A DNA stretch of 63,686 nucleotides, taken from contig CACKFO010000009.1 in assembly GCA_902599405.1 (NCBI GenBank), positions 1 through 63,686 on the forward strand, read 5' to 3'. Source of the stretch: an uncultured Alphaproteobacteria bacterium (GTDB lineage Bacteria; Pseudomonadota; Alphaproteobacteria; HIMB59). Below, in pieces: positions 45,529 to 63,679 of the stretch. Made by a program: the position numbers and the translations under genes. Below the pieces are notes generated by a model. That model saw only the letters and a list, made by a program, of their open reading frames with translations. It was not told where the DNA came from and made no database searches. Numbering within the stretch: the stretch's first letter is position 1; each line of letters starts with the position of its first letter.

Positions 45529-47883
45529 TTAAGGTAAAGGCCCGTCCTTTAAGAAACCTTTAAGCGTATTTTCCATTATTCTAGAGACATTATTATTGTA
45601 ATTATTATGTGAGAGACTACCACACCAAGCCAAAGACCCTGGTGCAAACATTGCTCCATTGTTAGGTGTTTTATAGTAAATCATATCAGCTCTGACCATT
45701 GGATTTTCATGACCACCACCATAGTAACCACGAACAGCAAAGTGTATTTCCTCGTTAACTTGCAACATCATATTAGAGTGATCCTGCGAGCGAGCCAAAT
45801 AATAAGCATTATGTGGGGTTCCAAATTCTAAATCGTATCTGTCTAACTCCAAACCGGCAGCTCCTCCACCAACTAAACCAAAATCACCAATCACCTCATC
45901 TGCTCCAATCCCCTCAAAGATCCATGAGCATTCAGGTTTAAAACTATCTTCTTCTCTTTTGTAGTATGAGGACACGTCAAATCCATAAGATGTAAAAGTT
46001 AACCCACAAACTTTAGAAGGTATTCTTCCTCGAGCTCTCCACATACCTCCATATTTACCATCAAAAGCATTATTGTATTCACCTGGGTTAGATGTCCATG
46101 CTCTTGTGCCTGCTTCACCTTTTCGAACTTCGGTAATATTAGGGTTGTCAGGATGATACTCACTAATCCAATAAAATCCATCTGATCCTAGATAAAAACA
46201 TCTACCACCCTGCATTTGATATGACTCTAGAGCATCCATATATTTCTCAGATGAATACTCAGGGTGACTTCCAGTCATCACAACTTTATAACGATTTAAT
46301 AAATTTATACCTTCATGTTCCAAATCCTCGTCTGTCAGAACATCAAAATCAAAACCTTTTTCTTCAAGCCAATCAGTAAGATGTAAGTCGGCATTGAGTT
46401 GCCATAATGAAGGAGAAAGCCAATGTCTGTATTTGGGTCTCATATTAAGGATTGGTCTTAGTCTTGATGATATTGATACACCATGTCCGTCTGAGTGAAG
46501 TGAATAAGTTGATAGCCCGTATTCTCTATGTTCATTTAAATATAAATCTGCTGGCTCAAGCACAGGCACTTTACCTGCAAGCAATTGTGCTACCACAGAG
46601 TTGGTTCCAAGATTATCATTGGAGTAAGCCATGTAACTATTAGTAGGCAATAAGAATAAAGTTTTTGCAGTTGCAGTCCCCTTGGGAGGTTTAACACAAA
46701 ATGGAATATAGTCCTCATTTTCTGATTCCTCTCGTCCGTCTACTCTTAGTCTTGCAGCGTAGACACCACTTTTTAATCCCTCAGGTACTTTTAAAGTAAA
46801 GTCTACATCCCATCTTGCATCGTCTATATCGTCGTCATGAAAATGAATTGCACCGTATTCCTCAGGTTTATGATGGAAAACCATTTCATCCGCTGTCCAG
46901 TTATGTCCTGTCATACCTCTGTTTGGCATATTAATAATAAATCCGTGGTGATTATTTGGAGAAGTATCAACAATCTTTGTTGAGGCAATGTTTTTGCCAA
47001 TATTCGCATGAAAATCCCAGGCACCTACGACTGTTGACCTGACAGTGGTATTACACTCATCATAGCTTGATGCAAGTGTTTCAATTTCAGCCTTCGATAG
47101 CGCAATATTAGATAATCTAGGTCTGTCTATCTTTCCATTAAATGTCTTTGTTTGCTCAGGTAATTCAATAGGGTGAGGTACCTCTTTAAAATGTCCGCCA
47201 GAAATATGTCTGCCTGATCTATTGTTGAGTGTTGTGGCAGCAATTAGCAATGGAGCGTCATTAGCAGCAGGTAAAACTGAGCTAGTGGTCTCAATAATAG
47301 CTGAGGTTTCTTCAATTGGATTCAAAATAGCCATACCCAAGCCACCATTTGTAGATGTAACTCTAGGTTCTTGATGAAGGGTAAGCCTTCTCGATTGAGC
47401 ATCAAATGTTGCAATAACCAGATACCAGACCTTTCTTAAAAGCTTTTTTTCTGAGGAGACAGTAACAACCTGAGAGCCATCACCAATTTCTACAGATAAA
47501 CAGCCTTCATCATTAACGAAAAGGCCATAGCCTTTTTTTTCTTCTTCATTAAATTTGGTGAAAATTCCTTGTCTGCCTTTGTCAGGGGTGGTTGGGAAAA
47601 TGTAAGCCTGCATAGTGAAGCTTTCTAAATTTAAATTATCGTGTTGGGGCATGATGATATATGATCCACCATGTATTCTCTGGTTTTTCCCTTGATAGGT
47701 TCCATTGCAACTAGCATCTATTTCGGCCTCTTTATATCCTGGGCCTTCAGGATTTGTATCACCGTGTATTAAGCGGACTAATTGAACTTCATAACTGTCA
47801 TTGTATTCAGCATTAATATAAAATTTAACCTCTTCGCCAGGGTGAGCTGAGTACTTATCACTATAACCTGTTATTTTTAACAT
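45529..47883 (-). CDS. N,N-dimethylformamidase-like large subunit
   Basis: A 784-residue protein resembling the large subunit of N,N-dimethylformamidase, a mononuclear iron amidohydrolase. Residues about 60-290 form a LamG/concanavalin-like domain (ESFTMQAYIFPTT, KVWYLVIATFDAQSRRLTL). The catalytic domain follows: TNSYMAYSND (Tyr417/Tyr420), GLSTYSLHSDGHG (Tyr460), ILNMRPKYRHW and MTGSHPEYSS (His540, Glu542). The spacing of Tyr, Tyr and Glu fits the known Tyr-Tyr-Glu iron site. It shares one base with the small subunit gene. The real amide substrate is unknown. Confidence 0.85.
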   Translation of the reverse strand: MLKITGYSDKYSAHPGEEVKFYINAEYNDSYEVQLVRLIHGDTNPEGPGYKEAEIDASCNGTYQGKNQRIHGGSYIIMPQHDNLNLESFTMQAYIFPTTPDKGRQGIFTKFNEEEKKGYGLFVNDEGCLSVEIGDGSQVVTVSSEKKLLRKVWYLVIATFDAQSRRLTLHQEPRVTSTNGGLGMAILNPIEETSAIIETTSSVLPAANDAPLLIAATTLNNRSGRHISGGHFKEVPHPIELPEQTKTFNGKIDRPRLSNIALSKAEIETLASSYDECNTTVRSTVVGAWDFHANIGKNIASTKIVDTSPNNHHGFIINMPNRGMTGHNWTADEMVFHHKPEEYGAIHFHDDDIDDARWDVDFTLKVPEGLKSGVYAARLRVDGREESENEDYIPFCVKPPKGTATAKTLFLLPTNSYMAYSNDNLGTNSVVAQLLAGKVPVLEPADLYLNEHREYGLSTYSLHSDGHGVSISSRLRPILNMRPKYRHWLSPSLWQLNADLHLTDWLEEKGFDFDVLTDEDLEHEGINLLNRYKVVMTGSHPEYSSEKYMDALESYQMQGGRCFYLGSDGFYWISEYHPDNPNITEVRKGEAGTRAWTSNPGEYNNAFDGKYGGMWRARGRIPSKVCGLTFTSYGFDVSSYYKREEDSFKPECSWIFEGIGADEVIGDFGLVGGGAAGLELDRYDLEFGTPHNAYYLARSQDHSNMMLQVNEEIHFAVRGYYGGGHENPMVRADMIYYKTPNNGAMFAPGSLAWCGSLSHNNYNNNVSRIMENTLKGFLKDGPLP

Positions 47884-48416: not shown

Positions 48417-50471
48417 TCATAATGCATAAACGGAAAGTATTACAGTTGCCACAGCCATACCTATTAATATAAGTGGCCAACCATACCCTCCTCCCATTCT
48501 GTCAATATAGTTTCCTTGCTCCTCAACATCGTCAGGTGCCAAATGTTCATCACCATTTAGTATGGGTTTTTTTGGCAAAGTCGATAAGTCCATCTTATTG
48601 GCTAAAAACCAAATTAGAAATATACCCGCTACCCACCAAATTATTTGGTAAGCCCATAGTGAAGGGACTCCCATCACCCAATTATCATAACTTTGATCCG
48701 CACTACCAAATATTAAGTTTCCGAAAATTAACCCTGGGCCGATAGAAAAGAATGCCCAAATTAAAAAGAAGACATAAGCAAGAGATTTTATTTTTTTTCT
48801 TGATGGGTGAATACCCATATGTTCATTTAAAAAATTATGAAATGACGCTCGATGTTCTTTATCTGTATCATTACTTGCAAATATGGAGGATAAAAAACAT
48901 ACAATAACATTAAAGAATAAACCCCATAACCCAGAGTAGATTGTAAGTGGCCATCGCCCCCAAGGAAGAGAATTTCCTGTTAGCTTATGACCAAAAGTTT
49001 CAGCTAAAGTTACAAAACCTAATCCGGTGATGAGTCCAAGAATTGCCCCACCTCTTGTGATCCATTTAAACCAAAGCATTCCAAGTAAAACAGGAAACAA
49101 TTGGAAACCAAAAGCGATTGCTAATCCACCAAGTAGTATTAGAGAAGTTTCAAAAAAAGTTGCAAGATACAGTGCCGCTAAGCTTAATAACAACATCGCT
49201 AACCTAGCAACTAATAACTCCCTTTTCCATGTAGGGTTACTATCGATATATGGTCTATAGAGATCTCTTGCCACCATGCTGCCTGAGGTCATTAAAAAAG
49301 CAGATAATGTAGATTGAAGAGCAGCAATTATGGATATTGCTAAAAATCCAACAATGATTGGTGAGAGATTACTGAAACTTTCAACAAACACATAAATTAA
49401 AGATGATATATTTTGTAGACTTAGCTCAGGGAATATTTGGTTAATGGCAAAACCATTTGAATTAACAATACTATTAGCTCCAAGAAGATGTGCTCCTACA
49501 CCTAATAAAGGGGCGAATATAAATAAAAATATTCCAACAACAGCACCTGAACCCCAAACTTGATAAAAATAAAATGACCTCGGTGATTTTACTGAATAGC
49601 TCCACATCGAAAATGTAGGAGAAAGCACAATACCCATATAAGAGAGAGTAAAGGATAAAATCATAACTGCTGTCCAAGGTCCTCCTAATGGGTTGTTTTT
49701 TCCAATACCTGCAACCCACTGAATTACACCAGGAACGTTGAAATATCCTGAAATATCACCGCCTCCGTAACCTCCAGTAGTTCCCCAAGCTCCGAAAGAT
49801 ATAAAGCTATTCGCCATAGATAGGTCTTCAAAAAAACTTAAACCTCCTAAGTAATTAAATACACCAACACCAAGTGCTAAGAAAAAAACAAAAAATAACC
49901 ATGATTGAACAACGCTTACACTCACCATGGGTTTAAATCCACCAGATACTATATAAAATAAGACAACAGCAGTTAGTGCCCACATTGCAGAGTCTCTAGT
50001 TATTTCACCTCCGCTAATAAACTCTACAACATTACCTGTTGATCCAATAATTATACCAAGAAATGGAACAGCAAAAAATAATCCGATTATTAGTACTACA
50101 ATTCTAAGAGTATTACTTTGATAATATTTATAATACATCTCTCCTGGAGTGATAAAATTAAATTTTCTACTTAGCATCCACTGCCTTTTAAAAAATAGTA
50201 TACTTCCGAGAGGAATTGTTATTACAATTGCAGCAGTAGCTAAAAAAGAGTATCCATCTGCATAAATTAATGATGGAAAAGAAATGATAGTTATGCCTGC
50301 AAATGTAGTTACTGTTGCAGAGAAAAAGAATACCCAAGGAGATACACTTCTATCTGCTAAATAGTAAGCCTCAGGGGTTTTATTTTTTCTAAGAGTTCTA
50401 GCTCCCCAAAAAAGACAAAAGCTTATATATAGGACAAGAAAGAAAAAAAACCAATAAAGATTAGCGACCAT
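48417..50471 (-). CDS. Sodium/solute symporter (SSS family)
   Basis: Inner-membrane Na+-coupled importer of 684 residues with about 14-15 helices, longer than the typical 500-550 because of a C-terminal extension with two or three more helices. The family regions EAYYLADRSVSPWVFFFSATVTTFAG and LAISIIAALQSTLSAFLMTSGSMVARDLYRPY (the Na+-site helix and following loop) are present. It probably imports the substrate of the adjacent DMFase-like enzyme; this is inferred from position. Confidence 0.9.
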   Translation of the reverse strand: MVANLYWFFFFLVLYISFCLFWGARTLRKNKTPEAYYLADRSVSPWVFFFSATVTTFAGITIISFPSLIYADGYSFLATAAIVITIPLGSILFFKRQWMLSRKFNFITPGEMYYKYYQSNTLRIVVLIIGLFFAVPFLGIIIGSTGNVVEFISGGEITRDSAMWALTAVVLFYIVSGGFKPMVSVSVVQSWLFFVFFLALGVGVFNYLGGLSFFEDLSMANSFISFGAWGTTGGYGGGDISGYFNVPGVIQWVAGIGKNNPLGGPWTAVMILSFTLSYMGIVLSPTFSMWSYSVKSPRSFYFYQVWGSGAVVGIFLFIFAPLLGVGAHLLGANSIVNSNGFAINQIFPELSLQNISSLIYVFVESFSNLSPIIVGFLAISIIAALQSTLSAFLMTSGSMVARDLYRPYIDSNPTWKRELLVARLAMLLLSLAALYLATFFETSLILLGGLAIAFGFQLFPVLLGMLWFKWITRGGAILGLITGLGFVTLAETFGHKLTGNSLPWGRWPLTIYSGLWGLFFNVIVCFLSSIFASNDTDKEHRASFHNFLNEHMGIHPSRKKIKSLAYVFFLIWAFFSIGPGLIFGNLIFGSADQSYDNWVMGVPSLWAYQIIWWVAGIFLIWFLANKMDLSTLPKKPILNGDEHLAPDDVEEQGNYIDRMGGGYGWPLILIGMAVATVILSVYAL

Positions 50472-50485
50472 AACTCAAACTTGAA

Positions 50486-51349
50486 TTAAGAGTTGTAATC
50501 AGTCTTTTCCTTAATAATTCTGAGTGCCTCTAATAAATATACTCTAAAGACTTCATGGTTTTCACTCATCGGGAAATGACCAATATCTCTCATTTCAATA
50601 TAAACTCCTCCTTTTATTTGTCTGGCAGTATCTTCTGTTGCTTCGGGAGGGGTTAGGTAGTCATAAGTACCAGTCAGCATGATAACAGGGCACTTGTGAC
50701 CATCGATATTTTGAAGCTCATCTCTTAAATCATGATCAACTGAATAAAAATGAAGGTCTCCTTTAAAAGCCTCTGATCCTTGAGTGTAATAATGCCAAGT
50801 TAACCATCTATCCATATCTGGAGATTGTGGGGCCATTAAATCCCAAACACCACTACCACACACTTGAGCTGCATTGGCATGAGGATGCCTCCACCAATCA
50901 ATATAAAAGCCAGGGGAATAATGCGCAGCCTCTACAGGAATGACAGCTTTAAATTTATTAGGATACTTCAGAGCTAATTGAAGAGCCACGTTTCCTCCAA
51001 AAGAAGAACCCATAAATATAGGGTTTTCAAGGTCTAAGGCCTTACAAAGTTCTACAATAAAATTACAGTAATGCTCTGCTGTTAATTTGTACTCCTCTTT
51101 CCACCATTCTGTATTATGAGGTGGATCTGATTTACCATGTCTTGGAAGGTCGTAAGCGATAACTTGATAGTTTTGAGTAATTTCTTCATCTTCCAGTAAT
51201 CCTCTCCACTGATGATTGTGGCATCCAGCAGTATGCTGACATACTAATGGAGTGCCTTTTCCATTTGAAAGATAAAAGACTTTATACTGTTGACCATCTA
51301 CCTCGATGGTAACGTATCTACCTATTGGGTCATGATGTTTTACTGCCAT
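50486..51349 (-). CDS. Alpha/beta-fold hydrolase
   Basis: A 287-residue hydrolase. The nucleophile elbow is GSSFGG (Ser116), preceded by HTAGCHNHQWRG (oxyanion HG-like position) and DLPRHGKSDPP; the acid lies in TGTYDYLTPPE and the His in DIGHFPMSE. No signal peptide is seen. It might hydrolyse an ester or amide product in the pathway of the neighbouring symporter and DMFase-like enzyme. It lies 14 bases upstream of the symporter gene. Confidence 0.9.
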   Translation of the reverse strand: MAVKHHDPIGRYVTIEVDGQQYKVFYLSNGKGTPLVCQHTAGCHNHQWRGLLEDEEITQNYQVIAYDLPRHGKSDPPHNTEWWKEEYKLTAEHYCNFIVELCKALDLENPIFMGSSFGGNVALQLALKYPNKFKAVIPVEAAHYSPGFYIDWWRHPHANAAQVCGSGVWDLMAPQSPDMDRWLTWHYYTQGSEAFKGDLHFYSVDHDLRDELQNIDGHKCPVIMLTGTYDYLTPPEATEDTARQIKGGVYIEMRDIGHFPMSENHEVFRVYLLEALRIIKEKTDYNS

Positions 51350-51374: not shown

Positions 51375-51764
51375 TCATACTGGGACTCCTGATTGTCTTA
51401 GCAATTCAAATTGAACAGTAAAGTTTCTAAGATTTTGCATTAAGACTAAATGATTGCCCTCGATTTTAAGGTCTTCTCTAAATGAGGCTGCATAGATACC
51501 ATGAAACATAGGTTTTGGAACAGGCTTTGCAAACTCTCTCCATGTTTGCTCAGATGCTCTTAAAGCAAAGTCGTATGGATCTAAACCTCCAGGGTTAGTA
51601 TTTATATTTTTAACCTTTCCATCGTGCATCTCGATAATCACTTTCACACTACCCATGTCGAAAAGAAATGAACAAGTATAATATTTTGCCATCGCTTTTA
51701 TGGTTTCATCTTTTTCAGTAAGCTCTTTATATTTTTTTGCCCAGGATTTTACATCTATACTCAT
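51375..51764 (-). CDS. SCP2-like small protein
   Basis: A 129-residue protein. The pattern FLFDMGSVKVIIEMHDGKV, then ALRASEQTWREFAKPVPKP and LKIEGNHLVLMQNLRNFTVQFELLR is like the sterol-carrier-protein-2 fold (a beta sheet with DLxIEGD-type strand and a terminal helix). A lipid or hydrophobic ligand role is possible. It is 25 bases before the hydrolase gene and 9 after flotillin. Confidence 0.65.
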   Translation of the reverse strand: MSIDVKSWAKKYKELTEKDETIKAMAKYYTCSFLFDMGSVKVIIEMHDGKVKNINTNPGGLDPYDFALRASEQTWREFAKPVPKPMFHGIYAASFREDLKIEGNHLVLMQNLRNFTVQFELLRQSGVPV

Positions 51765-51773
51765 GTTTTATAC

Positions 51774-53762
51774 CTATTTCTTTTTCCTGGGTGTCTTTGT
51801 GGCTTGTTCATCAAATCTCATATGCTTGTCCTTCTTAGGATCATCGTAGTCACCTAAAATATTCCTGATATTACTTGCCTCACCGGGCGACATACCAATT
51901 TCTTTTAAAAGACTATCTAAGAACGGCTGTTGTGCTCTATATCTAAGAGCAGAATTCACAACATTATCTGCTAAAGATCCTTTTTTTGAATATCCACCTG
52001 AGGACGCAGAGGGGTTATCAGCGTTGCCGCTTCCTTCAGCACCTCCTCCTTGACTAAATCCAGGTAATCCATTTACATCGACAACTTTAATTGAGTCAAT
52101 GTTTTGCATTGGTCTAACCCATTCTCTAATAATACCCTCAATTTTTTCAGCGAGTTTTTGTCTAAGTGCACTTCTTCTACTTGCATCACTTCTAGCATTT
52201 TCCGCTTCATTAAGGGCTTTTTTGCCAGCTGCTTCAATTTCATATCTAATTTTTGCAGCCATCGATGCTAACTTTTCTCTCTCAGCATTTTTACTAGCGT
52301 CTATTACTCCAAGAGCTTTTGTCTTCTCAGCTTGTTCAACATCTCGAATGGTGTTGACTTTTTCCTCAGCTTCTACAGCCTTAGCGCGAGCATTTTCTTC
52401 TTCCATTTTAGTTTTTAAGACTGACTTAGATTTTTCTAGAACTTCCATTTGTTTTTGCTTTTCTTCAATTTCTATTCTTTTTGCCTTTTCAATATCTAAG
52501 ACTCTTGTCTCTTGCTCAGCAGCAATTTTGAACGCATCAACATTTTTCTGTTGAGCAGTTTTTGCATTTTTAATTTGCTCCTCAGCCATAATATAAGCCT
52601 CTTCAGACTCATACCTTTTTCTAGCTTCTTCTTTTGCTGTTTGAGCTTTTTCCTCAGCAAGTTTGATATCAACTGATCTTTGTTTTTCTAGACGACTGAA
52701 TTCAACATCTCTTTCTAATTCAAGAATAGTTTTTTCTGTCTCAATATCTTTTTGTTTAATCTCGATAGAAGTTTGTTGCTTAAACTCATTTTGTTCTTTT
52801 CTTCTTTTCTCAATTTCTTGGATAAGTTTAGTTTCTTGTAAACTTTTTTCCATCTCAACAAAGTCTTTCTTGCTAATCTTTGCAATCTCAATATCTTTTT
52901 CTGAAGAGATTTCAGCCAGCTCAGACTCTTTGTCTTTCTCAGCTTTTGTTTTTACTGTCTCAGTATTTTCAATAGCTCTTTGTTGTTCGATTTCACGTTT
53001 TTGTTGATACTTTGAAAATTCTTCCTCTTTTTCAATTTCAAGAGTTTGCTTGATAGACTGGAGGTTTTTATTTCGAATACTAACCTCTGTATCTTTCTCA
53101 ATATCATTTCTTTTCTTTTTACGTGACTGAGTAAATTCTGTTATTTGAGTTAAACCCTCAGCATCAAATGTATTAGATGGATCAAATACACCCACAGGTG
53201 CTTGGTTAAGAGATGTCAAGGAAACAGTTTCTAACTCCAAACCAGTGTGCTTGATTGCTTCTTCAACGTGAGCTGCAACATTTTTAATATACTCAGATCT
53301 ATTCTCTTGAATTTCATCAAGGCTCATTTTTGCGGCTACAACACCTAGTCCATCAACAAATCGACCTTGAACAAGCTCCTTTAAATGATCAGGCTCTAAT
53401 GTTCTATTTCCCAATGTTTGCGCGGCTATTGAGACTGCTTCAGTTGTAGGAGCTACTCTTACATAGAATTCAGCCGTTACTTCTGCCCTCATTCTATTTT
53501 TTGTAATAAAAGATTTACTGCCGTTTCGTTGAACCTCTATACAAAGAGTTTTCATACCCACTGAGGTAATGTTATGAATAATAGGTAAAACGAAGGCACC
53601 TCCGCTGATCACAACTTGTTCACCACCCATACCAGTTCTAACAAACGCTATTTCCTTTGAGGAACGCCTGTACAGCCAATGTAGCAAGTAAACTATAATT
53701 GCTATTGCTAACGCTATTAAGATTATTATTGCAATAATATCTGCACCACTAGTAATGTTCAT
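51774..53762 (-). CDS. Flotillin-like SPFH/coiled-coil protein
   Basis: A 662-residue flotillin. An N-terminal membrane helix (residues 8-28) is followed by an SPFH domain (KEIAFVRTGMGGEQVVISGG, TKNRMRAEVTAEFYVRV) to about residue 200, and then a very long charged coiled coil (about 210-540) rich in Glu/Lys/Gln. The C-terminal tail has a Gly/Ser-rich linker and KKTPRKKK-type basic end. Flotillins organise membrane microdomains. It lies 27 bases downstream of the rhodopsin gene on the same strand, an unusual pairing. Confidence 0.92.
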   Translation of the reverse strand: MNITSGADIIAIIILIALAIAIIVYLLHWLYRRSSKEIAFVRTGMGGEQVVISGGAFVLPIIHNITSVGMKTLCIEVQRNGSKSFITKNRMRAEVTAEFYVRVAPTTEAVSIAAQTLGNRTLEPDHLKELVQGRFVDGLGVVAAKMSLDEIQENRSEYIKNVAAHVEEAIKHTGLELETVSLTSLNQAPVGVFDPSNTFDAEGLTQITEFTQSRKKKRNDIEKDTEVSIRNKNLQSIKQTLEIEKEEEFSKYQQKREIEQQRAIENTETVKTKAEKDKESELAEISSEKDIEIAKISKKDFVEMEKSLQETKLIQEIEKRRKEQNEFKQQTSIEIKQKDIETEKTILELERDVEFSRLEKQRSVDIKLAEEKAQTAKEEARKRYESEEAYIMAEEQIKNAKTAQQKNVDAFKIAAEQETRVLDIEKAKRIEIEEKQKQMEVLEKSKSVLKTKMEEENARAKAVEAEEKVNTIRDVEQAEKTKALGVIDASKNAEREKLASMAAKIRYEIEAAGKKALNEAENARSDASRRSALRQKLAEKIEGIIREWVRPMQNIDSIKVVDVNGLPGFSQGGGAEGSGNADNPSASSGGYSKKGSLADNVVNSALRYRAQQPFLDSLLKEIGMSPGEASNIRNILGDYDDPKKDKHMRFDEQATKTPRKKK

Positions 53763-53789: not shown

Positions 53790-54491
53790 TTATTGTCCAT
53801 TAACTCTCATGTCTTGTATTGCTGCTTTGTAAATTATTAAACCAAAAACTATTTTATTTAAAAAGTCTGCTAAATTATAAATCACATTAACACTGTTGGG
53901 ATCAATACCCCCACCCAAATGCTCTATGAAATATCCCATTGGATATATAGCCCATCCAATTGTTATAATAAGTCTGTTCGAGAAGAAAACCATTTGTACA
54001 TTTTCGTTTCCGCATCTAGCATTTGCTCTTCCAGCCTCTCCAACATATAGCTCACCAAGGATGTACAACCATCCAGCCAACCAAACAATGAAACCTAATG
54101 TCTTGCTCATATAACCCGCTGCACCTAAGAAACCTGCTACAACAAAAACTAAAGTTCCAACCAATAATCTCCAGAACATGCCTTGTTTAACTTTGACAAC
54201 TGACATAAGCATTGCATAAAAAATAAGTACAAGCATTGGAAAGTTAAGAAACCAATCTATATATCTTAATAAAGTTGGGGCGGTGCCGCTGACTACCCAG
54301 AGATTTTTTACGAAGAAATAATGTATAGAGGACATCAAACATACAACAGCTATCATTGTCATCGGTGTATGAAATCTCGAGCTTACTTTGCTGCGCTCAA
54401 AAAAGAAAAATAAAGTGGCACCAATCATGCCAACAGAAATTAACCAGAAAGACCCCCCTACAATGTCGTAAGGGAGAAGCATTTTATTCAT
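53790..54491 (-). CDS. Proteorhodopsin-like rhodopsin with a DNI motif
   Basis: A seven-helix retinal protein of 233 residues, of the proteorhodopsin family. The retinal Schiff-base lysine is Lys213 (YNLADFLNKIVFG), the counter-ions are Asp79 (RYIDW) and Asp209, and His57 matches the conserved proteorhodopsin His75. At the positions of Thr101 and the proton donor Glu108 there are Asn83 and Ile90, so the usual DTE motif reads D-N-I. The spectral tuning position (105 in proteorhodopsin) is Leu87, typical of green absorption. Lack of a carboxylic donor would slow the photocycle, so sensing or weak pumping is possible. AAGAGGAATAAG precedes the ATG. Confidence 0.93.
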   Translation of the reverse strand: MNKMLLPYDIVGGSFWLISVGMIGATLFFFFERSKVSSRFHTPMTMIAVVCLMSSIHYFFVKNLWVVSGTAPTLLRYIDWFLNFPMLVLIFYAMLMSVVKVKQGMFWRLLVGTLVFVVAGFLGAAGYMSKTLGFIVWLAGWLYILGELYVGEAGRANARCGNENVQMVFFSNRLIITIGWAIYPMGYFIEHLGGGIDPNSVNVIYNLADFLNKIVFGLIIYKAAIQDMRVNGQ

Positions 54492-54615: not shown

Positions 54616-56007
54616 TTATATTTGCTCCCTTATATGGGGTGCTCTTGAATAAAGAGCAACAAGAGGCAGAATAAGAAGACCAAATATAAATTGTTGCCCC
54701 TCAAAACTTAAACCTAGTCCAGCCAAAAATGTACTAATGACTTGAAGTGCAAGAACACCGATTACTGTAAATCCGTATCCTCCATATCCACCTAATAAGG
54801 AAGTTCCTCCTACAGCCACAGCTGCCACTGTTAAAAATAAATATTGATCACCTACACCAATGAATCCTCCACCACTCCAACCCAGTAACATTGCTCCAGT
54901 TGCTGCAGAGGTAAACCCACTAATGACATAAACTCCTACCCAATATGCTCTCTCAGAAATTGACAATCTATCAGCAGATAGTCTTTTTCCACCAACAGCA
55001 TATAAATTCCTTCCCCACTTAGTGTGTCTAAGTCCAACAATTAATAAAATTGAAATCAATATCCAAATTAAAATAACCGGAGGTATTGGGAGACCAAAAA
55101 ATTTTCCATTTAATGACGCTAAGTTCTTTAACCAGTCTGGAACTACACCAAAAACAGTTCCACCTGTAACTGTAGGTAGTGACACCAATATCTGTACTCC
55201 GCCTACTACCATAAACCCAACTCCAAGCGTGACTATTAGTGATTGTCCTTGGAGATTAAAACTTATCAAACCATTGAAAAGCCCGACAATCGTACCAAAA
55301 GCAAGAATAACTATAAACGCAAGCCAAGGAGGGACTCCAAGTGAAATAAGTGACATTAATCCTAAATTAGTTGCGCCAATTAAAAATGGTATTGATAAAT
55401 CTAGTCCGCCTAACATCACAACTAATGTTTGTCCAATAGTTGCAAGCCCTAAAAAAGAAGCAAAAACCAACATAGATTTAATATTCTGCAATGATAAGAA
55501 GCCATCAATAGAAACTGATCCTATTATAAAAAGACCAACTAATACGGCGACTCCTATAATTACGCTTTTGTTAATGTTTAAAAATTTGTATGCAAGAAAT
55601 GCTAAGATTAAGAAACCTAATAGTATGATTGCTGATACGACTGTTCTACCTGAGAAGAACCCTGGTACCAAGAAACACAGTAGTATAAAAAGACCTAAAA
55701 GAAGTAAGAATCCCGTAACAGCTATCCAGTTCTTTGCAATAAGGTCCCAAAAAAGGCTTCTTTTACTTGTGGTTTCAGTAGTTTCGGGAGGTTGAGAACG
55801 ATCTTCCTTTACTAAAGATCGATAAGACCATCTAACTAAGAAAAAATGCCATCCCCAAAGAATAATGGCAACAACAGCTACAGAGTAAAATGCAACCTGT
55901 ATCCAATCAGTTCTATCTACATAACCAAGAACTGCGGTACCTATCCCAGCAGCAACAGCAAAAAGAATTCCAAGTCCTTTTAAAAAATTATGAGTTCTTT
56001 TCTCCAT
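54616..56007 (-). CDS. CUT2 (ribose-type) ABC transporter permease, N-terminally extended
   Basis: Permease of 463 residues. The RbsC-type core begins near residue 145 (SIDGFLSLQNIKSMLVFASF) with GLDLSIPFLIGATNL, FNLQGQSLIVTLG, and VAVGGTSLLGGYGGYGFTVIG. The N-terminal 140 residues add about four more helices with a polar loop (EDRSQPPETTETTSK), not usual in RbsC. It is separated from the other permease by 3 bases. The pair would form the channel of the importer whose binding protein and ATPase are divergently encoded. Confidence 0.88.
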   Translation of the reverse strand: MEKRTHNFLKGLGILFAVAAGIGTAVLGYVDRTDWIQVAFYSVAVVAIILWGWHFFLVRWSYRSLVKEDRSQPPETTETTSKRSLFWDLIAKNWIAVTGFLLLLGLFILLCFLVPGFFSGRTVVSAIILLGFLILAFLAYKFLNINKSVIIGVAVLVGLFIIGSVSIDGFLSLQNIKSMLVFASFLGLATIGQTLVVMLGGLDLSIPFLIGATNLGLMSLISLGVPPWLAFIVILAFGTIVGLFNGLISFNLQGQSLIVTLGVGFMVVGGVQILVSLPTVTGGTVFGVVPDWLKNLASLNGKFFGLPIPPVILIWILISILLIVGLRHTKWGRNLYAVGGKRLSADRLSISERAYWVGVYVISGFTSAATGAMLLGWSGGGFIGVGDQYLFLTVAAVAVGGTSLLGGYGGYGFTVIGVLALQVISTFLAGLGLSFEGQQFIFGLLILPLVALYSRAPHIREQI

Positions 56008-56010
56008 TTA

Positions 56011-58284
56011 CTAAACTTTTCTATCTTCTGATAGACCTCCCCATTTTTCAAGTCCTTCTTGAGATTTTAATTTTATTTTATAAACACCAAACGCTTGCCA
56101 TATCAGAGGCGAAATAGCTATTCCAATTGCAGTAATTAAAATCATTTTCCAATAAGGGTAACCAATTGCGAAGAACATCGCTGACCATGTTAATGCAGCT
56201 ATACTTAAAATAGCAATATAAGGTCTGAACCTAGCAAATGATATTTTTGCCCCCATTGTTAAATATGTAAAAAATTGAAATACAAATATTGCAAATATAA
56301 TTAGAGCTGCTTCTTTAAGCCAAGTTACTTCACTTGTGATAAATTCACCGCGAATAGGTCTTGTATAGTTTATTGATGATGTATCGCCAACAATTAATTC
56401 TGTAATAATTGGAGAGTAAAACTTACTTCCATCATCAGTAATAATTGTTCCAGATGGTGAGGCTAAAAAGTATACAGCGAGTATTGCTAATACACCGAGG
56501 AAAATAATGAAAACATTATTCAAATTGATATTCGAGAAAAGAGTTGGTGCCGTAAGTAAAAAAAGTAAAAATAAAATTAGTATTACAGCGTATCCATCTA
56601 TCCCAAAGAAACTTTGTCTATTTGACTCAATGCCGTAATAAGATATTGCAGCAAATACAATAAATGAAATTGCTATTGCAAATAATACCAATGTTTGTGT
56701 TTTGATTTCTTTTCTAAATCTTGGCATAGCAATTATTACTATCGCAGATGTAAAGAAAACTATTCCTCCTAAAGTTGCGACAGCGTAAGCGAGGCCAACC
56801 AAAGCACTCGAGGAAGATGAAAAATCAGGCAATCCTGCACCAACTCTTAGATATTCAGATGTAAAATACTGAGGAGCATAATTTAAAATATATTGTAAGT
56901 TGGTACCCAAATCAGCGTTAACGAAATAAGCCTCTCTCGTGCCACTCCAAACACAACCGAAGAAAATAACAATTGCGGCAATAATAAAAGACACTGTTGG
57001 GCCATCTCTATGTTTAACAAGCAAATAAACGAGATAAATCAAGGCTGCTATTCCGATAGCAATAAACATCCACACTGTAGAATTTCCACCCTCTGCGCAT
57101 GCCTTACCTGTGATTAAACAATCACTCCCGGACTCAAGTGCTTTTTCAAAAATCTCAGCATCTTTAGATTTACCTCCAAAACCTCCCACAGTCCCTCTAG
57201 TTACTTGATCAAATTTCATATGAATTTGAACAGCAGCAGCACTTAATGTTCCAATAATAAAAAATACAAAAACTGATAAATTTTTGAATGCTTTTTGAAT
57301 ATAAGGAAGTGCAATAAGTATTAAAAGAGAAGCCACCAATACCGCACCGTATGATAAGTCAGTAACGAAACTTTGAAATCTTTCAAACCTAAAAGTTGAT
57401 AGAATAAAATTAATCAAATAAATGTTAACTGAACCTAGAATAGCTCCAAACGCACCGCCTCTTCCACCAATTAAACTTGACCCACCTAATACAAGTGCTG
57501 TAACTGCCATCAATGTATATGTAGTACCTTGAGTTGGGTCTCCAGAACCAATTAAGCCTGTAAATGCAATAGCTGCGAGTGCAGCGTAAACTCCACCGAT
57601 AATATGAGCGCCAATTCTTACAACGTAAATTCTCACTCCACTTGTATAAGCAGACTTTTCATCTGAACCCATTAATTTTAAATGTTGCCAGTAAGCAGTA
57701 TGTGTCAGTGCATACCAAATAAGTGTCGAGAAAATTAAAAGTATTAGTGTGGGCTGTACTACCTCAGTTCCAGCACTCCAAGATAACATCCAATCAGGTG
57801 CTCTTCCTCCTGGTCTTGGTAAAATAACTAAATTTATACCAGAGAAAGCAAGAAACATACTTAAGGCAACTATTATTGGTTGAACTCTAATAAAAATTAC
57901 GATTAAAGCATAAAGAAATTGGTAAATTACTCCTATTGCAAGAGCACATATGAAATACGCAACTGGCGATTGAATATAACCTGCAGCATAAAGTTGTATT
58001 GTCGTTACATTAATAAAACCAATAAGTGGTCCTATTGATAAATCCACTGTTACTCTGCCAGCTAAAGCCAATGCAGTAAGAGCATAAGTAGCAAGAATAA
58101 GAGGTGTTGAAACCATAATTGCGGTTCCAATACCCGAGCCTGAAATAATTTGAGGTCCTCTAATCATCGCAAAAATCATTAGGGCAAAAAATATAAATAT
58201 TGGGACGATTAAGTATTTTGTTGACTGAGGATCAGAACCTGGAATTTGAGAGGGTTTTATTGCTGCTACAAGTTGATTAACCAT
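56011..58284 (-). CDS. CUT2-type ABC permease fused to an extra ten-helix domain
   Basis: A 757-residue membrane protein, about twice normal size. Residues 1-345 form a ribose-type permease (DLSIGPLIGFINVTTI, VQPIIVALSMFLAF, LVLGGSSLIGGRGGAFGAILG). From about 345 there are roughly ten further helices, with a periplasmic loop carrying two Cys (SGSDCLITGKACAEGG) and a second loop near residues 640-665. The extension has no domain I can name. It overlaps none of its neighbours, 5 bases after the biotin carboxylase gene. Confidence 0.87.
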   Translation of the reverse strand: MVNQLVAAIKPSQIPGSDPQSTKYLIVPIFIFFALMIFAMIRGPQIISGSGIGTAIMVSTPLILATYALTALALAGRVTVDLSIGPLIGFINVTTIQLYAAGYIQSPVAYFICALAIGVIYQFLYALIVIFIRVQPIIVALSMFLAFSGINLVILPRPGGRAPDWMLSWSAGTEVVQPTLILLIFSTLIWYALTHTAYWQHLKLMGSDEKSAYTSGVRIYVVRIGAHIIGGVYAALAAIAFTGLIGSGDPTQGTTYTLMAVTALVLGGSSLIGGRGGAFGAILGSVNIYLINFILSTFRFERFQSFVTDLSYGAVLVASLLILIALPYIQKAFKNLSVFVFFIIGTLSAAAVQIHMKFDQVTRGTVGGFGGKSKDAEIFEKALESGSDCLITGKACAEGGNSTVWMFIAIGIAALIYLVYLLVKHRDGPTVSFIIAAIVIFFGCVWSGTREAYFVNADLGTNLQYILNYAPQYFTSEYLRVGAGLPDFSSSSSALVGLAYAVATLGGIVFFTSAIVIIAMPRFRKEIKTQTLVLFAIAISFIVFAAISYYGIESNRQSFFGIDGYAVILILFLLFLLTAPTLFSNINLNNVFIIFLGVLAILAVYFLASPSGTIITDDGSKFYSPIITELIVGDTSSINYTRPIRGEFITSEVTWLKEAALIIFAIFVFQFFTYLTMGAKISFARFRPYIAILSIAALTWSAMFFAIGYPYWKMILITAIGIAISPLIWQAFGVYKIKLKSQEGLEKWGGLSEDRKV

Positions 58285-58289
58285 TATTA

Positions 58290-59792
58290 TTAGTCAAAAT
58301 ATACGACTTTGATACCCCCTCTATCAGACTGCGATCTTCCATGACCTACTTTAAGCTTATCTGTTTCAACAATTTTAATTCTCTTTGAGTCCAAATCAAT
58401 ATTTTTAGTAAAACCATTTTTAAAAGATGTCTTACTAATAAGAGTGTTTAAATTATTTTCGATATATTTTGTGTTGTGTTTACCCTCAATAAAGTTTTTG
58501 TCTTTGAGAAGACAAATTAAAAAGGGGATGTTTGTCTTAATACCTTCAATCTGGGTGCCCTCTAAAAATTTTATTAATTTGGATATAGCATCGTCTCGAA
58601 TTAAGTCGTGAGATATAATTTTTCCAATCATCGGATCATAATAGAAACTAACTTCATCTCTTTCATCATATCCCCAATCTAATCTTATGCCATTTGGTAT
58701 TTTAGGAAATTTTAATTTATTTATTTTTCCTGGAGATGGTAAGAAATTTTGAGAAGGATCCTCTGCATAAACTCTGCACTCAATTGAATGTCCATAAGTT
58801 TTAATTTTACTTTGATTTAAAAATTTATTTTTTCTATTAAAAGCAAAATTTATTTGCATGGAAATTAAATCATTATTTGTAACTAACTCTGTAACAGGAT
58901 GTTCAACTTGAATTCTAGTATTCATCTCAAGAAAATAATATTTCATTTCTTGGACATCATATATAAACTCTACAGTACCTGCTCCTTCGTATTTAACATC
59001 AGAAGATAATTTTACAGCGGCTTGAGCCATATTGTTAATTAATTCCCTGTCTACTTCTGGTGCTGGAGACTCCTCAATTATCTTTTGATATCTTCTTTGC
59101 ATAGAGCAATCTCTTTCGAACAGATGCACAGATCCTTTTGCACCAAATCCAAAAACTTGTATTTCAATATGTCGGGCGTTGGTGATAAATTTCTCAATAA
59201 AAATATCTCCATTACCAAAAGATTTTGCAGCAAGATTACTAGTTTTTTCAATTGCACTAGCAAGGTCTTTAAAGTTTTGGACGACGCTCATGCCTATCCC
59301 CCCACCACCAGCACTTGATTTTACAAGTAAAGGGTAACCTATTGCTTCACATTTTGTCTTAAGTTGTTCATCACTTAATTTATGAACATTATTTATACCT
59401 GGACATATAGGTATATTGGAATTTAGGGCTAATTCACGAGCAATATCCTTATTTCCCATTGATTTTATTGATTTTGGTTTAGGGCCAATCCATGTGATAC
59501 CTCTGTTTATGACCTCTTGAGCAAAAGTGTCGTTTTCTGATAAAAAACCAAAACCAGGATGAATAGCATCCACATTTGATTTTGTAGCTATTTCTAAAAT
59601 CTTAATGTAAGAAAGATAACTTTCCTGAGCTTTACTAGGTCCAATGTAATAAGACTCGTCAGATAATCTTACATGCTTTGAATTCTTATCTGCATCTGAA
59701 TAAACAGCTACAGATTTGTGACCTAATATTTTACAACTTTTTATAATTCTATTTGCTATTTCACCGCGATTAGCAATTAAAATTTTTTTCAT
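58290..59792 (-). CDS. Biotin carboxylase-like ATP-grasp enzyme
   Basis: A 500-residue carboxylase subunit resembling AccC. N-terminal KKILIANRGEIANRIIKS, ATP-grasp Gly-rich loop KSSAGGGGIGMSV, metal/carbonate region FLEMNTRIQVEHPVTE, and C-terminal IECRVYAEDPSQNFLPSPG. It carboxylates biotin on a carrier protein; no carrier or carboxyltransferase is present here. It overlaps pxpA by 4 bases. Biotin carboxylases accompany some 5-oxoprolinase clusters, so it may serve that or another acyl-CoA/urea carboxylase. Confidence 0.88.
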   Translation of the reverse strand: MKKILIANRGEIANRIIKSCKILGHKSVAVYSDADKNSKHVRLSDESYYIGPSKAQESYLSYIKILEIATKSNVDAIHPGFGFLSENDTFAQEVINRGITWIGPKPKSIKSMGNKDIARELALNSNIPICPGINNVHKLSDEQLKTKCEAIGYPLLVKSSAGGGGIGMSVVQNFKDLASAIEKTSNLAAKSFGNGDIFIEKFITNARHIEIQVFGFGAKGSVHLFERDCSMQRRYQKIIEESPAPEVDRELINNMAQAAVKLSSDVKYEGAGTVEFIYDVQEMKYYFLEMNTRIQVEHPVTELVTNNDLISMQINFAFNRKNKFLNQSKIKTYGHSIECRVYAEDPSQNFLPSPGKINKLKFPKIPNGIRLDWGYDERDEVSFYYDPMIGKIISHDLIRDDAISKLIKFLEGTQIEGIKTNIPFLICLLKDKNFIEGKHNTKYIENNLNTLISKTSFKNGFTKNIDLDSKRIKIVETDKLKVGHGRSQSDRGGIKVVYFD

Positions 59793-60574
59793 TTCTTATC
59801 AACGATATAAGGCATTTTGGTATGATTGCCGTTTGAAGTTTTTTGTGGAATTTTTTTATCAGAGGAAATTTTTTCTCTCAGAGCCTTTAAGATTTCTACA
59901 GCATTAGGAGTGTCAGAGTGGACACAAATTGTTTCACATCCTACAACTACATCGTTTCCTTGAACAGTTTTAACTTTATTTTCATTCATTGCTCTTAAAC
60001 AACGCTCCACAGCTCTATCAGTTGGATAATATTTATTTCGACCCTTGGCTATAACCAAATAACCTGTTTCATCATATTCCAAGTCAGAGTAAAATTCTCC
60101 GTAAAATTTTACCCCTCTTTCTTTGTATACTTTTTCGTGAAAGGTATTAACCATTCCGAAAATACCAACATTAAAAATCTCAGCTGCGTCAGCAATTCCA
60201 TGAGCCACATCTTCCTCTTTCGCGGAGACACCATATAAAGATCCATGAGGTTTGATATGGTTTAATGGCATTCCATACTCATCTAGAAAGGCTTTGATGG
60301 CACCAGTTTGATACATTACAAGATTTTTGATTTCATCACGTTTCATTTTCATCGGCCTTCTTCCAAATCCTACTAAGTCAGGATAGGCAGGGTGCGATCC
60401 AACTTTCACATCATATTTTTTTGCAAGCTCTACAGTTTTCCTCATTGTGTTTGGGTCTGAGGCGTGAAACCCACAGGCTACATTAGCAGCATCTATATAA
60501 GGCATTATTTCTTCGTCATCTGCGAAGGAGTAAATACCAAAACCCTCACCCATATCGCAATTCAAATCGACCAT
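59789..60574 (-). CDS. pxpA: 5-oxoprolinase subunit A (LamB/YcsF family)
   Basis: A 261-residue protein of the LamB/YcsF family, subunit A of the ATP-dependent PxpABC 5-oxoprolinase that opens pyroglutamate. It begins VDLNCDMGEGFGIYSFADD and contains ANVACGFHASDP, VKVGSHPAYPDLVGFGRRPM, HIKPHGSLYG and ICVHSDTPNAVEI, all family-typical. PxpB and PxpC are not in the window, so the substrate may differ. It is first in the minus-strand unit of the ABC importer. Confidence 0.92.
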   Translation of the reverse strand: MVDLNCDMGEGFGIYSFADDEEIMPYIDAANVACGFHASDPNTMRKTVELAKKYDVKVGSHPAYPDLVGFGRRPMKMKRDEIKNLVMYQTGAIKAFLDEYGMPLNHIKPHGSLYGVSAKEEDVAHGIADAAEIFNVGIFGMVNTFHEKVYKERGVKFYGEFYSDLEYDETGYLVIAKGRNKYYPTDRAVERCLRAMNENKVKTVQGNDVVVGCETICVHSDTPNAVEILKALREKISSDKKIPQKTSNGNHTKMPYIVDKK

Positions 60575-60634: not shown

Positions 60635-60649
60635 TTCCACATGTTGGAA
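60635..60649. promoter_or_regulatory. Inverted repeat between divergent pxpA and ABC units
   Basis: TTCCACATGTTGGAA has arms TTCCA/TGGAA around CATGT and lies 86 bases before the binding-protein ATG and 60 before the pxpA ATG. It is a reasonable operator for joint control of both units; no regulator gene is adjacent. Confidence 0.4.
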
Positions 60650-60721
60650 CAATTTTGCTTATATTTTTCAGAATATAGGTATTATTATAGACACTTATAT
60701 ATAAGTAAGGAGGATAAAACT

Positions 60722-61882
60722 ATGACATTGCTTAAAAAGTTCATAGCTATTTTAGCTGTTAGTTTTGTCGGTGTCGCAGGTAACTTAAATGCTGACATTT
60801 TAGACGAAATTCCAGCTGATATTAGAGACTTCGTTTATAATCCTGACTTTATGGATCCTAACCAACCGCTTGGTGAAAGTGTATACAGAAATTGGAAAAG
60901 TGATAGACCACTACCTTGGACTATCGGTTATGCAAGTTCTTACGCAGGAAATCTATGGAGAAAAGGTGTGATGGAGAGATTGTACGGTGACTATTTGCCA
61001 AAAATGAAAGCAGCAGGTATTCTTAATGATATCGTTGTTACACAATCTAACCTAAAAGACGCGGTTCAAATTCAACAAATGAGACAGTTAACTGATCAAG
61101 GAGTTGATGGATTAATAGTCTGTTGCTCAAATCCTGTTGCATTAAATCCAACTATTGAGTATGCGTACGGAAAAGGTGTTCCTACTGCATCAATGACAGG
61201 ATACTTAACTTCAGAATATGCTATCAGTACATCTGTTAACTATAAATTAACCGGATATTATATTGCACAATGGCTAGCAGAAACTATTGGTGGTGAAGGT
61301 AATGTTGTTATCATGGAAGGAATTCCTGGAACATCTGCATCTGACTCACAGCACCAAGGTATGCTAGATGGATTTGCAGAATATCCAGATATTACCGTTG
61401 TTGCTGAAATTGCACACATGTGGACACCACAAATTGCTCAAGCTGAACTTCAAAAATGGTTATCAGCCAATACAATTGAAGTTGACGGATTTGCTGTTCA
61501 GTCTTCAGGAGAGTCCGGAGCACTTAACGCTCTAGAATCATCTGGAAGACCAATGGTCCCTATGGCTTTGGGTGGAGAAATTGGTGCATTCTGCTATTGG
61601 AGAAATAATCCAGACTTTATTGACAGAGCGGTCTATGCATGGCCTCCTGGAGATGATGCAGAGTTTGCGATGAATGTTCTTTTAAGAACTATGTATGGTC
61701 AGGGTCTTAAAATCCAGTCTATCTTAGTTCCTCCATATGAAGAAGATGTTGAGACTATTCAGTCTTTTGTTCCTGAAGATTGTGACAGAAACTCAAGTGA
61801 GTTTAGAACTGTTGGAATTGAAAACTGGGCTAGTGACGAATACTTAAATAATTTCTTCGATCGTGGAGAAGCATTACTTTAA
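60722..61882 (+). CDS. CUT2 ABC transporter periplasmic sugar-binding protein
   Basis: A 386-residue binding protein of the ribose/xylose-type periplasmic family. ATG 60722 follows AAGGAGG by 7 bases and gives the signal peptide MTLLKKFIAILAVSFVGVAG; a longer upstream frame lacks a ribosome site. The mature part has IGYASSYAGNLWRKGVMER, LTDQGVDGLIVCCSNP and NVVIMEGIPGTSASDSQHQGMLDGF, the two-lobed ligand-site pattern. It is rich in Trp and acidic residues. The ligand is unknown. It is followed by a strong hairpin before the ATPase. Confidence 0.93.
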   Translation: MTLLKKFIAILAVSFVGVAGNLNADILDEIPADIRDFVYNPDFMDPNQPLGESVYRNWKSDRPLPWTIGYASSYAGNLWRKGVMERLYGDYLPKMKAAGILNDIVVTQSNLKDAVQIQQMRQLTDQGVDGLIVCCSNPVALNPTIEYAYGKGVPTASMTGYLTSEYAISTSVNYKLTGYYIAQWLAETIGGEGNVVIMEGIPGTSASDSQHQGMLDGFAEYPDITVVAEIAHMWTPQIAQAELQKWLSANTIEVDGFAVQSSGESGALNALESSGRPMVPMALGGEIGAFCYWRNNPDFIDRAVYAWPPGDDAEFAMNVLLRTMYGQGLKIQSILVPPYEEDVETIQSFVPEDCDRNSSEFRTVGIENWASDEYLNNFFDRGEALL

Positions 61883-61894
61883 TTTAAGTAATTA

Positions 61895-63679
61895 ATGAAT
61901 GAAGAGAAAACTTTGGACAGTGCCCCAAACGGGAATGGGGCACAGTCTAACTCCTCTAAGGTCGGAGGAGATATTTATGTTCAAGATGCATCAAAGTCCT
62001 TTGGTGTTACAAAAGCCCTAAACGGTGTAAATTTCAAAGCTAACTTTGGTGAAATACACGCCATTGTCGGTGGTAATGGATGTGGTAAGAGCACATTGGC
62101 AAAGGTTATTTCAGGAGTTTTACCTTTGGACAAAGGAAAGGTCTCTATTATGGGGCATTCACCCAATTCCCCAATTGAAGCTCAAAGAATTGGTATCGCA
62201 ACAGTTTTTCAAGAAGTGATGATAGCTGAAGAGGCTACTGTTTATGAAAATTTATTTATTGGATATGACTCTTTTTTTGGGAAAAAATTAGCACATCGAG
62301 ATAGGGTCGAAAAAGCTGCCTCTATAATGTTAGAGCTATCCGGTGAATTTGTCGACCCATATACAATAGCAAATCAATTATCGCTTGGTATGAAAGCTTG
62401 GATAACAATTGGTAGAGCATTTTTAAGAAATCCTAAAGTACTAATTTTAGATGAGTCATCAGCCGCTCTCGATTTTGACTCTACAGAAAGACTTTTTGCA
62501 AAAATGAGAACATTAAGAGATCAAGGTGCAGCAATCTTTATTGTAACTCACAGAATTGCAGAGCTAGTTAGAATAAGCGATAGAGCAACAGTTATGAGAG
62601 ATGGGGTTGATGTTGGAGTTTTAGCAGGAGAGGAAATTACTGAAAAAAATCTTCTCGGACTTATGACAGGTGATAAAAAATTTTCTACAGCATCAGAAAT
62701 AAAAGCTACACCTCCAGACTCAATCTCAGATGAAATAGTTTTGTCTGCTAAAGATTTAAAAGTTTGGGAAAATGGAGATGTTATTAACTTTGATCTTCCA
62801 AAAGGTGAGATACTTGGAGTCACAGGACTTGATGGGCAAGGACAAGATAATTTTGTTAAGGCTCTTGCAGGTATCGATCAACCACTTAGCGGAGAAGTAA
62901 TTGTTAAACAGTCTGATGAGGAAAGAGAGAGAACCAAGAAAGATTACACTACTGTGAATAGCTTGTTAGATGCCAAGAAAAGTGGAGTTGGATATGTATC
63001 TGGAGATAGAAAAAAAGAGGGTATTTTTCCTAACATGAGCATATATGAAAATATGGTCATACCTTTATATAAAGGAAAACAAGCTAAAACATCAGGTGGA
63101 TTTATTGGTTTTATTAAATGGATGGAATTAAACGGTATTTTTGATTGGGAAGTAGAAAGATTAAGTATTAAGACAGGTCCAAAGAATAATCTAATTACCT
63201 CATTGAGTGGAGGAAATCAGCAAAAAGTCATGATTGCCAGAGCTTTCACAACAACTCCAAAAATACTAATACTTAATGATCCAGCGAGAGGTATTGATGT
63301 TGGCGCAAAACGAGACTTATATAAACACTTAAGAATTTTCGTAAATGAAGGTGGTACAGCGATATTTCTATCAAGTGAACTCGAGGAATTTATAGGATTA
63401 TGTCATCGAGTTTTAGTTTTTAGAGATGGGAGTATATTTGAGACCTTTGAGAAAGAGGATATTAATCCAAATACTATTCTTGAAGGAATGTTTGGTCATA
63501 CTCAAAAGAAATCTAATGATAATAATTTATCAAGAACGCAAAATTCAAATCAAAAAGCTAATACTAATGCAGAAATTCAAAATAAAATTATTAAACCGAC
63601 TGTGCCTACAAATGTCAAAGTAGTAGATTTTACAGATAAACCTAAGAGCAAAGAAAAAATTAAAGTTAAATATTTTTAA
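61895..63679 (+). CDS. CUT2 ABC transporter double ATPase (RbsA type)
   Basis: A 594-residue protein with two ABC domains. In the first, Walker A is GGNGCGKST near residue 57, the signature loop LSLGMKA (deviates from LSGGQ) and Walker B ILDESSAALD. The second has the degenerate P-loop GLDGQGQDNF and intact LSGGNQQK and LILNDPARGIDVG. A hydrophilic tail of about 70 residues follows, unusual for the family. The first 25 residues (NEEKTLDSAPNGNG...) coincide with a hairpin and may be a non-coding leader; the true start is doubtful. Confidence 0.9.
   Translation: MNEEKTLDSAPNGNGAQSNSSKVGGDIYVQDASKSFGVTKALNGVNFKANFGEIHAIVGGNGCGKSTLAKVISGVLPLDKGKVSIMGHSPNSPIEAQRIGIATVFQEVMIAEEATVYENLFIGYDSFFGKKLAHRDRVEKAASIMLELSGEFVDPYTIANQLSLGMKAWITIGRAFLRNPKVLILDESSAALDFDSTERLFAKMRTLRDQGAAIFIVTHRIAELVRISDRATVMRDGVDVGVLAGEEITEKNLLGLMTGDKKFSTASEIKATPPDSISDEIVLSAKDLKVWENGDVINFDLPKGEILGVTGLDGQGQDNFVKALAGIDQPLSGEVIVKQSDEERERTKKDYTTVNSLLDAKKSGVGYVSGDRKKEGIFPNMSIYENMVIPLYKGKQAKTSGGFIGFIKWMELNGIFDWEVERLSIKTGPKNNLITSLSGGNQQKVMIARAFTTTPKILILNDPARGIDVGAKRDLYKHLRIFVNEGGTAIFLSSELEEFIGLCHRVLVFRDGSIFETFEKEDINPNTILEGMFGHTQKKSNDNNLSRTQNSNQKANTNAEIQNKIIKPTVPTNVKVVDFTDKPKSKEKIKVKYF
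61916..61947 (+). terminator. Intercistronic hairpin after the binding-protein gene
   Basis: GACAGTGCCCCA (61916-61927) pairs with TGGGGCACAGTC (61936-61947): eight perfect pairs, an A-A mismatch, then three more, with an 8-base loop. There is no T-run. The position after a binding-protein gene parallels the 37355 hairpin and suggests differential mRNA stability, yet it lies inside the ATPase ORF as called. Confidence 0.7.

Follow-up and report, generated by a model that had tools for sequence, protein, structure and literature searches.

The reverse strand of the sequence analysed here (a stretch of 63,686 nt, hereafter the window) encodes at 53790..54491, stop codon included, a 233-residue protein that is almost certainly a flotillin-associated rhodopsin (FArhodopsin) of the DNI type, belonging to a known sister clade of proteorhodopsin. 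We lean towards the view that this protein is a light-independent membrane partner of flotillin and of a transport module, not a pump. Because the pump residue has been lost and relatives in the same gene cluster lack the retinal lysine, pumping is probably not its function, and it may not use light at all. The class was named by Haro-Moreno et al. (2023; PMC10308929), who describe DNI in its HIMB59 members, so that an unreported motif was rejected as a reading of the gene; the window protein is itself already published as a class, and there is no reason to call it new. The most useful addition made here is a set of genomes that carry the core of the same operon and no other detected rhodopsin.

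Assignment to this class, as its DNI-L subtype, is based on the residues listed below, on a Pfam Bac_rhodopsin match (111.5 bits, against a cut-off of 24.6) and on clade placement, and near-identical or identical proteins occur on other contigs, AG-numbered assemblies among them, a numbering that resembles in style that of the single-cell genomes in PMC10308929. We aligned the protein to PDB entry 4jq6, to PsFAR and to bacteriorhodopsin. In this alignment D79, N83 and I90 stand where proton pumps have D-T-E, N83 aligning with T89 of bacteriorhodopsin and I90 with its proton donor D96, positions numbered T101 and E108 in proteorhodopsin; D79, L87, D209, K213 and R76 pair with D85, L93, D212, K216 and R82, and further positions carry H57, F84, F116, G120, A124 and W137. 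DNI is one of the motifs (DTT, DTL or DNI) found in FArhodopsins. The residue calls of the preliminary description (H57, D79, N83, L87, I90, D209 and K213) were all re-read in the alignment and stand; the strand of the gene, the reverse one, is not given there. No carboxylate occupies the donor position in the alignment to 4jq6 and bacteriorhodopsin, which rules out a carboxylic donor there, as that description had held; its doubt about a normal pump cycle was likewise right, and the protein lies outside the pump clade. Compared with proteorhodopsin (4jq6, 7b03), the fold family and the Schiff-base residues are common and identity is 35-49%, whereas the window protein lacks a carboxylic donor, replaces T101 by N and the glutamate at 124 by A, belongs to a separate clade and has a short N-terminus (its residue 9 pairs with residue 28 of 4knf). 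An antenna site was ruled out as well: position 134, at which we take G versus F as the indicator of such a site, is F in the window protein and G in the xanthorhodopsin-like row L095.

Two trees support the placement. In the first, the DNI proteins, the SAR11 DTT proteins and PsFAR lay apart from the proteorhodopsins (support 96/82), with a DNI clade at 99/95; it was built without rows L064, L093 and L094, L097 and L098 gave no row, and L092 (the lysine-less protein of L139), labelled there as a proteorhodopsin, joined the FArhodopsin side at 99/93. The second, of 51 hand-picked rows and including the lysine-less and f146 groups described below, gave 100/99 for the FArhodopsin side and 99/97 for the DNI clade, with a long-branch warning at L153/L154. 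DNI is sister to SAR11 DTT, PsFAR comes next and the proteorhodopsins lie apart. Inside the FArhodopsin clade of the second tree, the six lysine-less proteins group together (100/99) on long branches. Flotillin lies downstream on the same strand in 59/59 places (two of which, L072 and L138, seem to represent a single contig), and thus the question raised in the preliminary description, whether DNI proteins form a clade of their own with this synteny, is answered in the affirmative.

Within the genus, the gene was found in 38 of the 52 genomes searched and in 8 of 10 with a completeness of 90% or more. All copies carry DNI (37) or DNV (1), so the motif is not a product of chance or error, and K213 is present in 38/38. 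dN/dS was 0.007-0.009 against the three nearest DNI-L copies, for which synonymous sites were unsaturated, and 0.026-0.048 against unsaturated DNI-Q pairs, values that are rough since dS exceeds 1. The window gene is under strong purifying selection, and a sequencing error or a decaying gene is ruled out by its frequency in the genus and by dN/dS of 0.007-0.05 across unsaturated DNI pairs. The wider surveys were based on samples of 398 genomes from the phylum, 385 from the class, 397 from the SAR11 order and 248 from family f3. Seven of the 397 SAR11-order genomes carried a FArhodopsin, separated by a clean gap in score (457-470 bits versus at most 276), and in the viral contigs scanned no relative was confirmed. 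Three copies are unusual. In G062 (L064/L136) the first ~20 codons are out of frame with the remainder, through an assembly error or real damage; the SAR11 protein L075 has E rather than D at the counter-ion position; and L137 (G014:C23), a contig of 8 kb bearing a SAR11-type cluster, was placed in a window-genus bin that has its own FArhodopsin gene and is probably a binning contaminant (4% contamination is listed).

The flotillin gene (51774..53762, reverse strand; 662 residues with Band_7 and Flot domains by Pfam) begins 27 nt downstream of the rhodopsin, with which it is probably co-transcribed; the two further Band_7 genes detected in the host are grouped on contig C10. The same strand continues with a 129-residue protein (51375..51764) that has no Pfam or NCBIfam match and is possibly the sterol-carrier-like protein mentioned in PMC10308929, an alpha/beta hydrolase (50486..51349, Pfam), a sodium:solute symporter of the SSF family (48417..50471, Pfam; homologues in 5/6 f3 loci and in SAR11 locus L138), a 142-residue protein common to the SAR11-type clusters L137 and L138 (47883..48311), an N,N-dimethylformamidase beta-subunit-like protein (45529..47883; Pfam DMFA2_C, 74-77% identical in L137 and L138) and a predicted AttM-family lactonase of the metallo-beta-lactamase fold (43932..44885; NCBIfam AHLLactAttM, 426.7 bits with a cut-off of 390). 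Directly upstream, still on the reverse strand and assigned by Pfam, are a sugar-type ABC permease A (54616..56007, BPD_transp_2), permease B with a long C-terminal extension (56011..58284), a biotin carboxylase-like protein (58290..59792) and a LamB/YcsF (PxpA-like) protein (59789..60574). A periplasmic sugar-type binding protein (60641..61882, Peripla_BP_4) and a sugar-type ABC ATPase (61895..63679) follow on the forward strand, the latter stopping 7 bases short of the window's end; the window comprises contig C9 in full (63686 bases). Permease A lies upstream in 37/37 DNI-type loci and in 8/9 of the f3 and f146 loci; in the available, limited flanks of SAR11 loci it was found in 0/11. The widely shared operon genes are those of the sugar-type ABC system (permeases A and B, ATPase and binding protein), flotillin, the alpha/beta hydrolase and the 129-residue protein. 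The hydrolase is among the best conserved of the cluster proteins, at 77-88% identity in most far relatives (45% in L153), and the 129-residue protein retains 67-79% in most of those where it was seen (32% in L153); both are better conserved than the rhodopsin, the values in f3 and f146 with L153 left out being 77-82% for the hydrolase, 67-79% for the 129-residue protein and 32-56% for the rhodopsin. The HIMB59 FArhodopsins of PMC10308929 share with the window protein the motif, flotillin neighbour, clade, lysine and a co-occurring DTE proteorhodopsin, and their clusters share the PxpA-like, carboxylase, dimethylformamidase, symporter and hydrolase genes; as they are described there, we find no essential difference in the window protein.

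An odd rhodopsin in G265, from the phylum sample, is surrounded by much of the window's gene set. Searches of the 248 f3 and 385 class genomes brought to nine the larger alphaproteobacterial genomes with the FArhodopsin core operon. Six belong to f3 (G265, G953, G1035, G989, G1011 and G977; 2.3-7.5 Mb), and their proteins (L139, L150-L154) have R or L at the K213 position, G or T at D79 and R at 120. The other three belong to f146 (G1417, G1263 and G1348; 4.0-4.5 Mb), and theirs (L188, L189 and L190) retain the lysine with DTT, DTV or DTI and have a pump-like pocket (V84, M116, A120), so that, judging from these residues, they are more likely than any other members of the family to bind retinal. 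In 8/9 genomes the rhodopsin gene stands between those for permease A and flotillin; the G977 contig starts at the rhodopsin, followed by flotillin. Among near lysine-less relatives dN/dS was 0.18-0.21 and 0.035, indicating purifying selection. The f3 genomes are 95-100% complete, so that a second rhodopsin could be looked for, and none was detected in any of the nine, by Pfam PF01036 in f3 (where the FArhodopsin of G1011 itself fell below threshold) and by profile A4 in f146 (one match each). Blh was undetected in 8/9, G989 having a partial match at a contig edge. This absence is weak evidence, since proteorhodopsin genomes used for comparison had Blh in 4/4 cases in f3 and in just 2/4 elsewhere; G1394 and G1340, with DTE-type proteorhodopsins (L167, L170) and no Blh match, are possible retinal scavengers. 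Lysine-less FArhodopsins beside flotillin have been reported from freshwater metagenomes (PMC10308929), and the f3 proteins fit these in having R or L at the lysine site and flotillin adjacent; according to that report, other rhodopsins in the freshwater genomes could not be determined.

The changes in the window protein extend to the retinal pocket. Relative to the aligned pumps, V is replaced by F84, M by F116 and E by A124 in DNI proteins, in addition to N83 and I90 (V90 in one), and these proteins keep K213, D79, D209, R76, H57, W80, W180 and Y183. Conservation of W80, W141 and W180 is no proof of retinal binding, because most lysine-less relatives keep them. Positions 116, 120 and 137 align with M118, G122 and S141 of bacteriorhodopsin, residues that lie around the beta-ionone ring (PMC4479019). 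Two pocket states occur among the 38 genus members, L87/G120/W137 in 33, the window protein included, and Q87/E120/G137 in five, with no intermediate. These two subtypes are added here: in PMC10308929, as far as its account of the HIMB59 and Pseudothioglobus members goes, the difference given is that between Q and L at the tuning position. Position 120 or 137 is occupied by a residue bulkier than glycine in the DNI, SAR11, PsFAR and lysine-less groups (W116 and Q120 in SAR11 members, H84 and E120 in PsFAR, R120 in lysine-less relatives), the mildest pocket being that of f146, with A120 and S or A at 137. Comparison with these outgroups suggests that E120/G137 may have preceded G120/W137 in HIMB59. 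Over a hand-chosen pocket list of 29 sites, losses of proteorhodopsin-invariant residues were not concentrated in the pocket (5/23 pocket versus 18/51 other sites, P 0.93), and fixed differences between DNI-L and DNI-Q were only marginally so (4/13, P 0.06); both results speak against a pocket plugged by such side chains. In the alignment F84, F116 and W137 are bulky residues at pocket positions, the AlphaFold model (built from 18 alignment rows, pLDDT 52.5) being too poor to measure a retinal clash; a Foldseek search with this model served for entry titles and identities only.

Others have targeted the same plug. PsFAR, where Ps presumably denotes Pseudothioglobus, is represented by cryo-EM entries released on 2025-07-23, the wild type (PDB 9r21) and an H84V/E120G variant (9r23) in which these same two sites are set to pump residues; no accompanying paper was found among the literature matches listed. 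PsFAR is 57-58% identical to the window protein in the Foldseek alignments and lies on the same side of the tree, and differs in having F57, H84, M90, E120 and G137 where the window protein has H57, F84, I90, G120 and W137. The SAR11 DTT-T rhodopsins (PMC5864233; PMC10308929) are the sister group, with flotillin alongside and 66-69% identity to the window protein, from which they differ in T83, T90, W116, Q120, F180 and H184. For all three marine FArhodopsin groups, HIMB59 included, side chains are predicted to clash with retinal (PMC10308929).

The light-independent role that we favour starts from direct observations: the residues, the clade, the synteny, the signs of selection, and the occurrence of the same core operon with a lysine-less protein in relatives whose genomes gave no further rhodopsin. 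The seven-helix protein would be made together with flotillin, which may gather it in a membrane patch with the neighbouring ABC and sodium symporters, and the module would import and degrade a small organic molecule, which may be a lactone to judge from the adjacent genes. The chromophore cavity is probably empty or holds a slender acyl-type ligand, with bulky side chains, W137 in the window protein and E, Q or R at position 120 in most groups, occupying the place where the beta-ionone ring would sit. A retinal-free proteoopsin has been reported to hold decanoate, its carboxylate salt-bridged to the lysine (PMC11322631), and could serve as a physical model for such a non-retinal ligand. Against a retinal-free state are the retained Schiff-base residues, Blh in the host, G120 as in pumps, and the upper-photic distribution.

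Another reading is a light sensor with a slow photocycle, in which retinal at K213, with D79 as counter-ion and the donor missing, would signal to flotillin or to the transporters. We regard such a sensor as unlikely. The intact Schiff-base region, the host Blh and the strong purifying selection are all in keeping with it, as are the peak of HIMB59 FArhodopsin genes in the upper photic zone (PMC10308929) and the pump-like pocket of the f146 proteins. However, Pfam identified no transducer in the 20 window proteins scanned, direct neighbours included, bulky residues occupy the pocket positions, the operon is kept in lysine-less relatives, and the SAR11 sister type showed no visible retinal binding and no pH change in E. 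coli, although misfolding there was a possible cause (Olson et al., 2018; PMC5864233).

Alternatively, FArhodopsin might be auxiliary to a pump. The authors of PMC10308929 favour the idea that it helps the proton pump, and in such a scheme it would form hetero-oligomers with the host DTE proteorhodopsin in flotillin patches and so tune it. A potential partner is present: in the host genome (G000; 1.26 Mb, 89% complete) another rhodopsin, with DTE and a tuning-site Q, is encoded at G000:C1:106210-106875, and a Blh-family gene lies ~3.6 kb from it on the same contig. The host thus likely has a pump and probably makes retinal, and the window protein is a second rhodopsin. A proteorhodopsin match also occurs in 31 of the 38 genus genomes with FArhodopsin, the other seven being 50-94% complete, and the PsFAR and PsPR entries contain five chains each, so that both can be oligomers. 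Yet the host proteorhodopsin and Blh lie together on C1, away from the FArhodopsin cluster on C9, and the nine larger genomes with the core operon and no other detected rhodopsin make assistance to a co-resident proteorhodopsin unlikely as a general function. For the window protein we consider this role quite improbable.

A carboxylic donor is absent from some known pumps (DTK, DTG and the like), which counts, along with the retained D79 and K213, for a light-driven pump that uses another donor or direct proton uptake, or that moves another ion. A SAR11 DTQ-Q rhodopsin from 770 m did pump in E. coli, but the DTT-T type gave no pH change, a pump changed to DTT-T lost its pumping (PMC5864233) and the T101 equivalent is also altered, to N, in the window protein, so that a pump is the least likely reading and a very remote one. 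Taken as a whole, the interpretation in the preliminary description is partly supported. Its slow photosensor and its alternative-donor pump both assume bound retinal and are left unsupported by the clash predicted in PMC10308929 and by the same-operon relatives without the lysine, and its deduction of green light from Leu87 matters only if retinal binds.

To the FArhodopsin family as a whole we tentatively extend the light-independent reading, in a form that we would not yet call probable. The fold would now be a light-independent part of a flotillin-organised operon for uptake and catabolism, perhaps of lactones; some lineages would have dropped the lysine, the counter-ion, all other rhodopsins and retinal synthesis, and in other lineages the lysine would persist, either as a relic or to hold a carboxylate ligand. 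In HIMB59 the beta-ionone plug would have passed from E120 on helix D to W137 on helix E, a shift implying that filling of the retinal site is itself under selection.

The genes around several of these rhodopsins hint at lactone catabolism as the role of the operon. Agrobacterium attKLM/blcABC degrade gamma-butyrolactone by a lactonase, an aldehyde dehydrogenase and an alcohol dehydrogenase. The L139 cluster contains an AttM-family lactonase (447.4), a succinate-semialdehyde dehydrogenase (705.5, with a subfamily cut-off of 646) and an iron alcohol dehydrogenase that scores under every cut-off, with ErcA the best model and 4-hydroxybutyrate dehydrogenase fifth. Within the limited flanks available, the lactonase occurs in 3/6 f3 loci (L139, L150 and L151), the aldehyde dehydrogenase in two (L139 and L151) and the iron alcohol dehydrogenase in three f3 loci and SAR11 locus L138; f146 has a distant lactonase only (32-36%), SAR11 L137 and L138 have none, and the window has the lactonase alone. 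Given this patchy pattern, the substrate is best treated as hypothetical.

Rfam at gathering scores identified two tRNAs. Promoter-like sites were at chance level (5 found, 4.7 expected). In the 1-kb region scanned, two terminator-like hairpins, against 0.6 expected, lie inside the rhodopsin reading frame on its own strand, at 54416-54476. Next to the lactonase, at 42621-43928, is a xylose isomerase that scores over its curated cut-off, with HAD, aldo/keto reductase and sugar-binding genes nearby at 37-43 kb.
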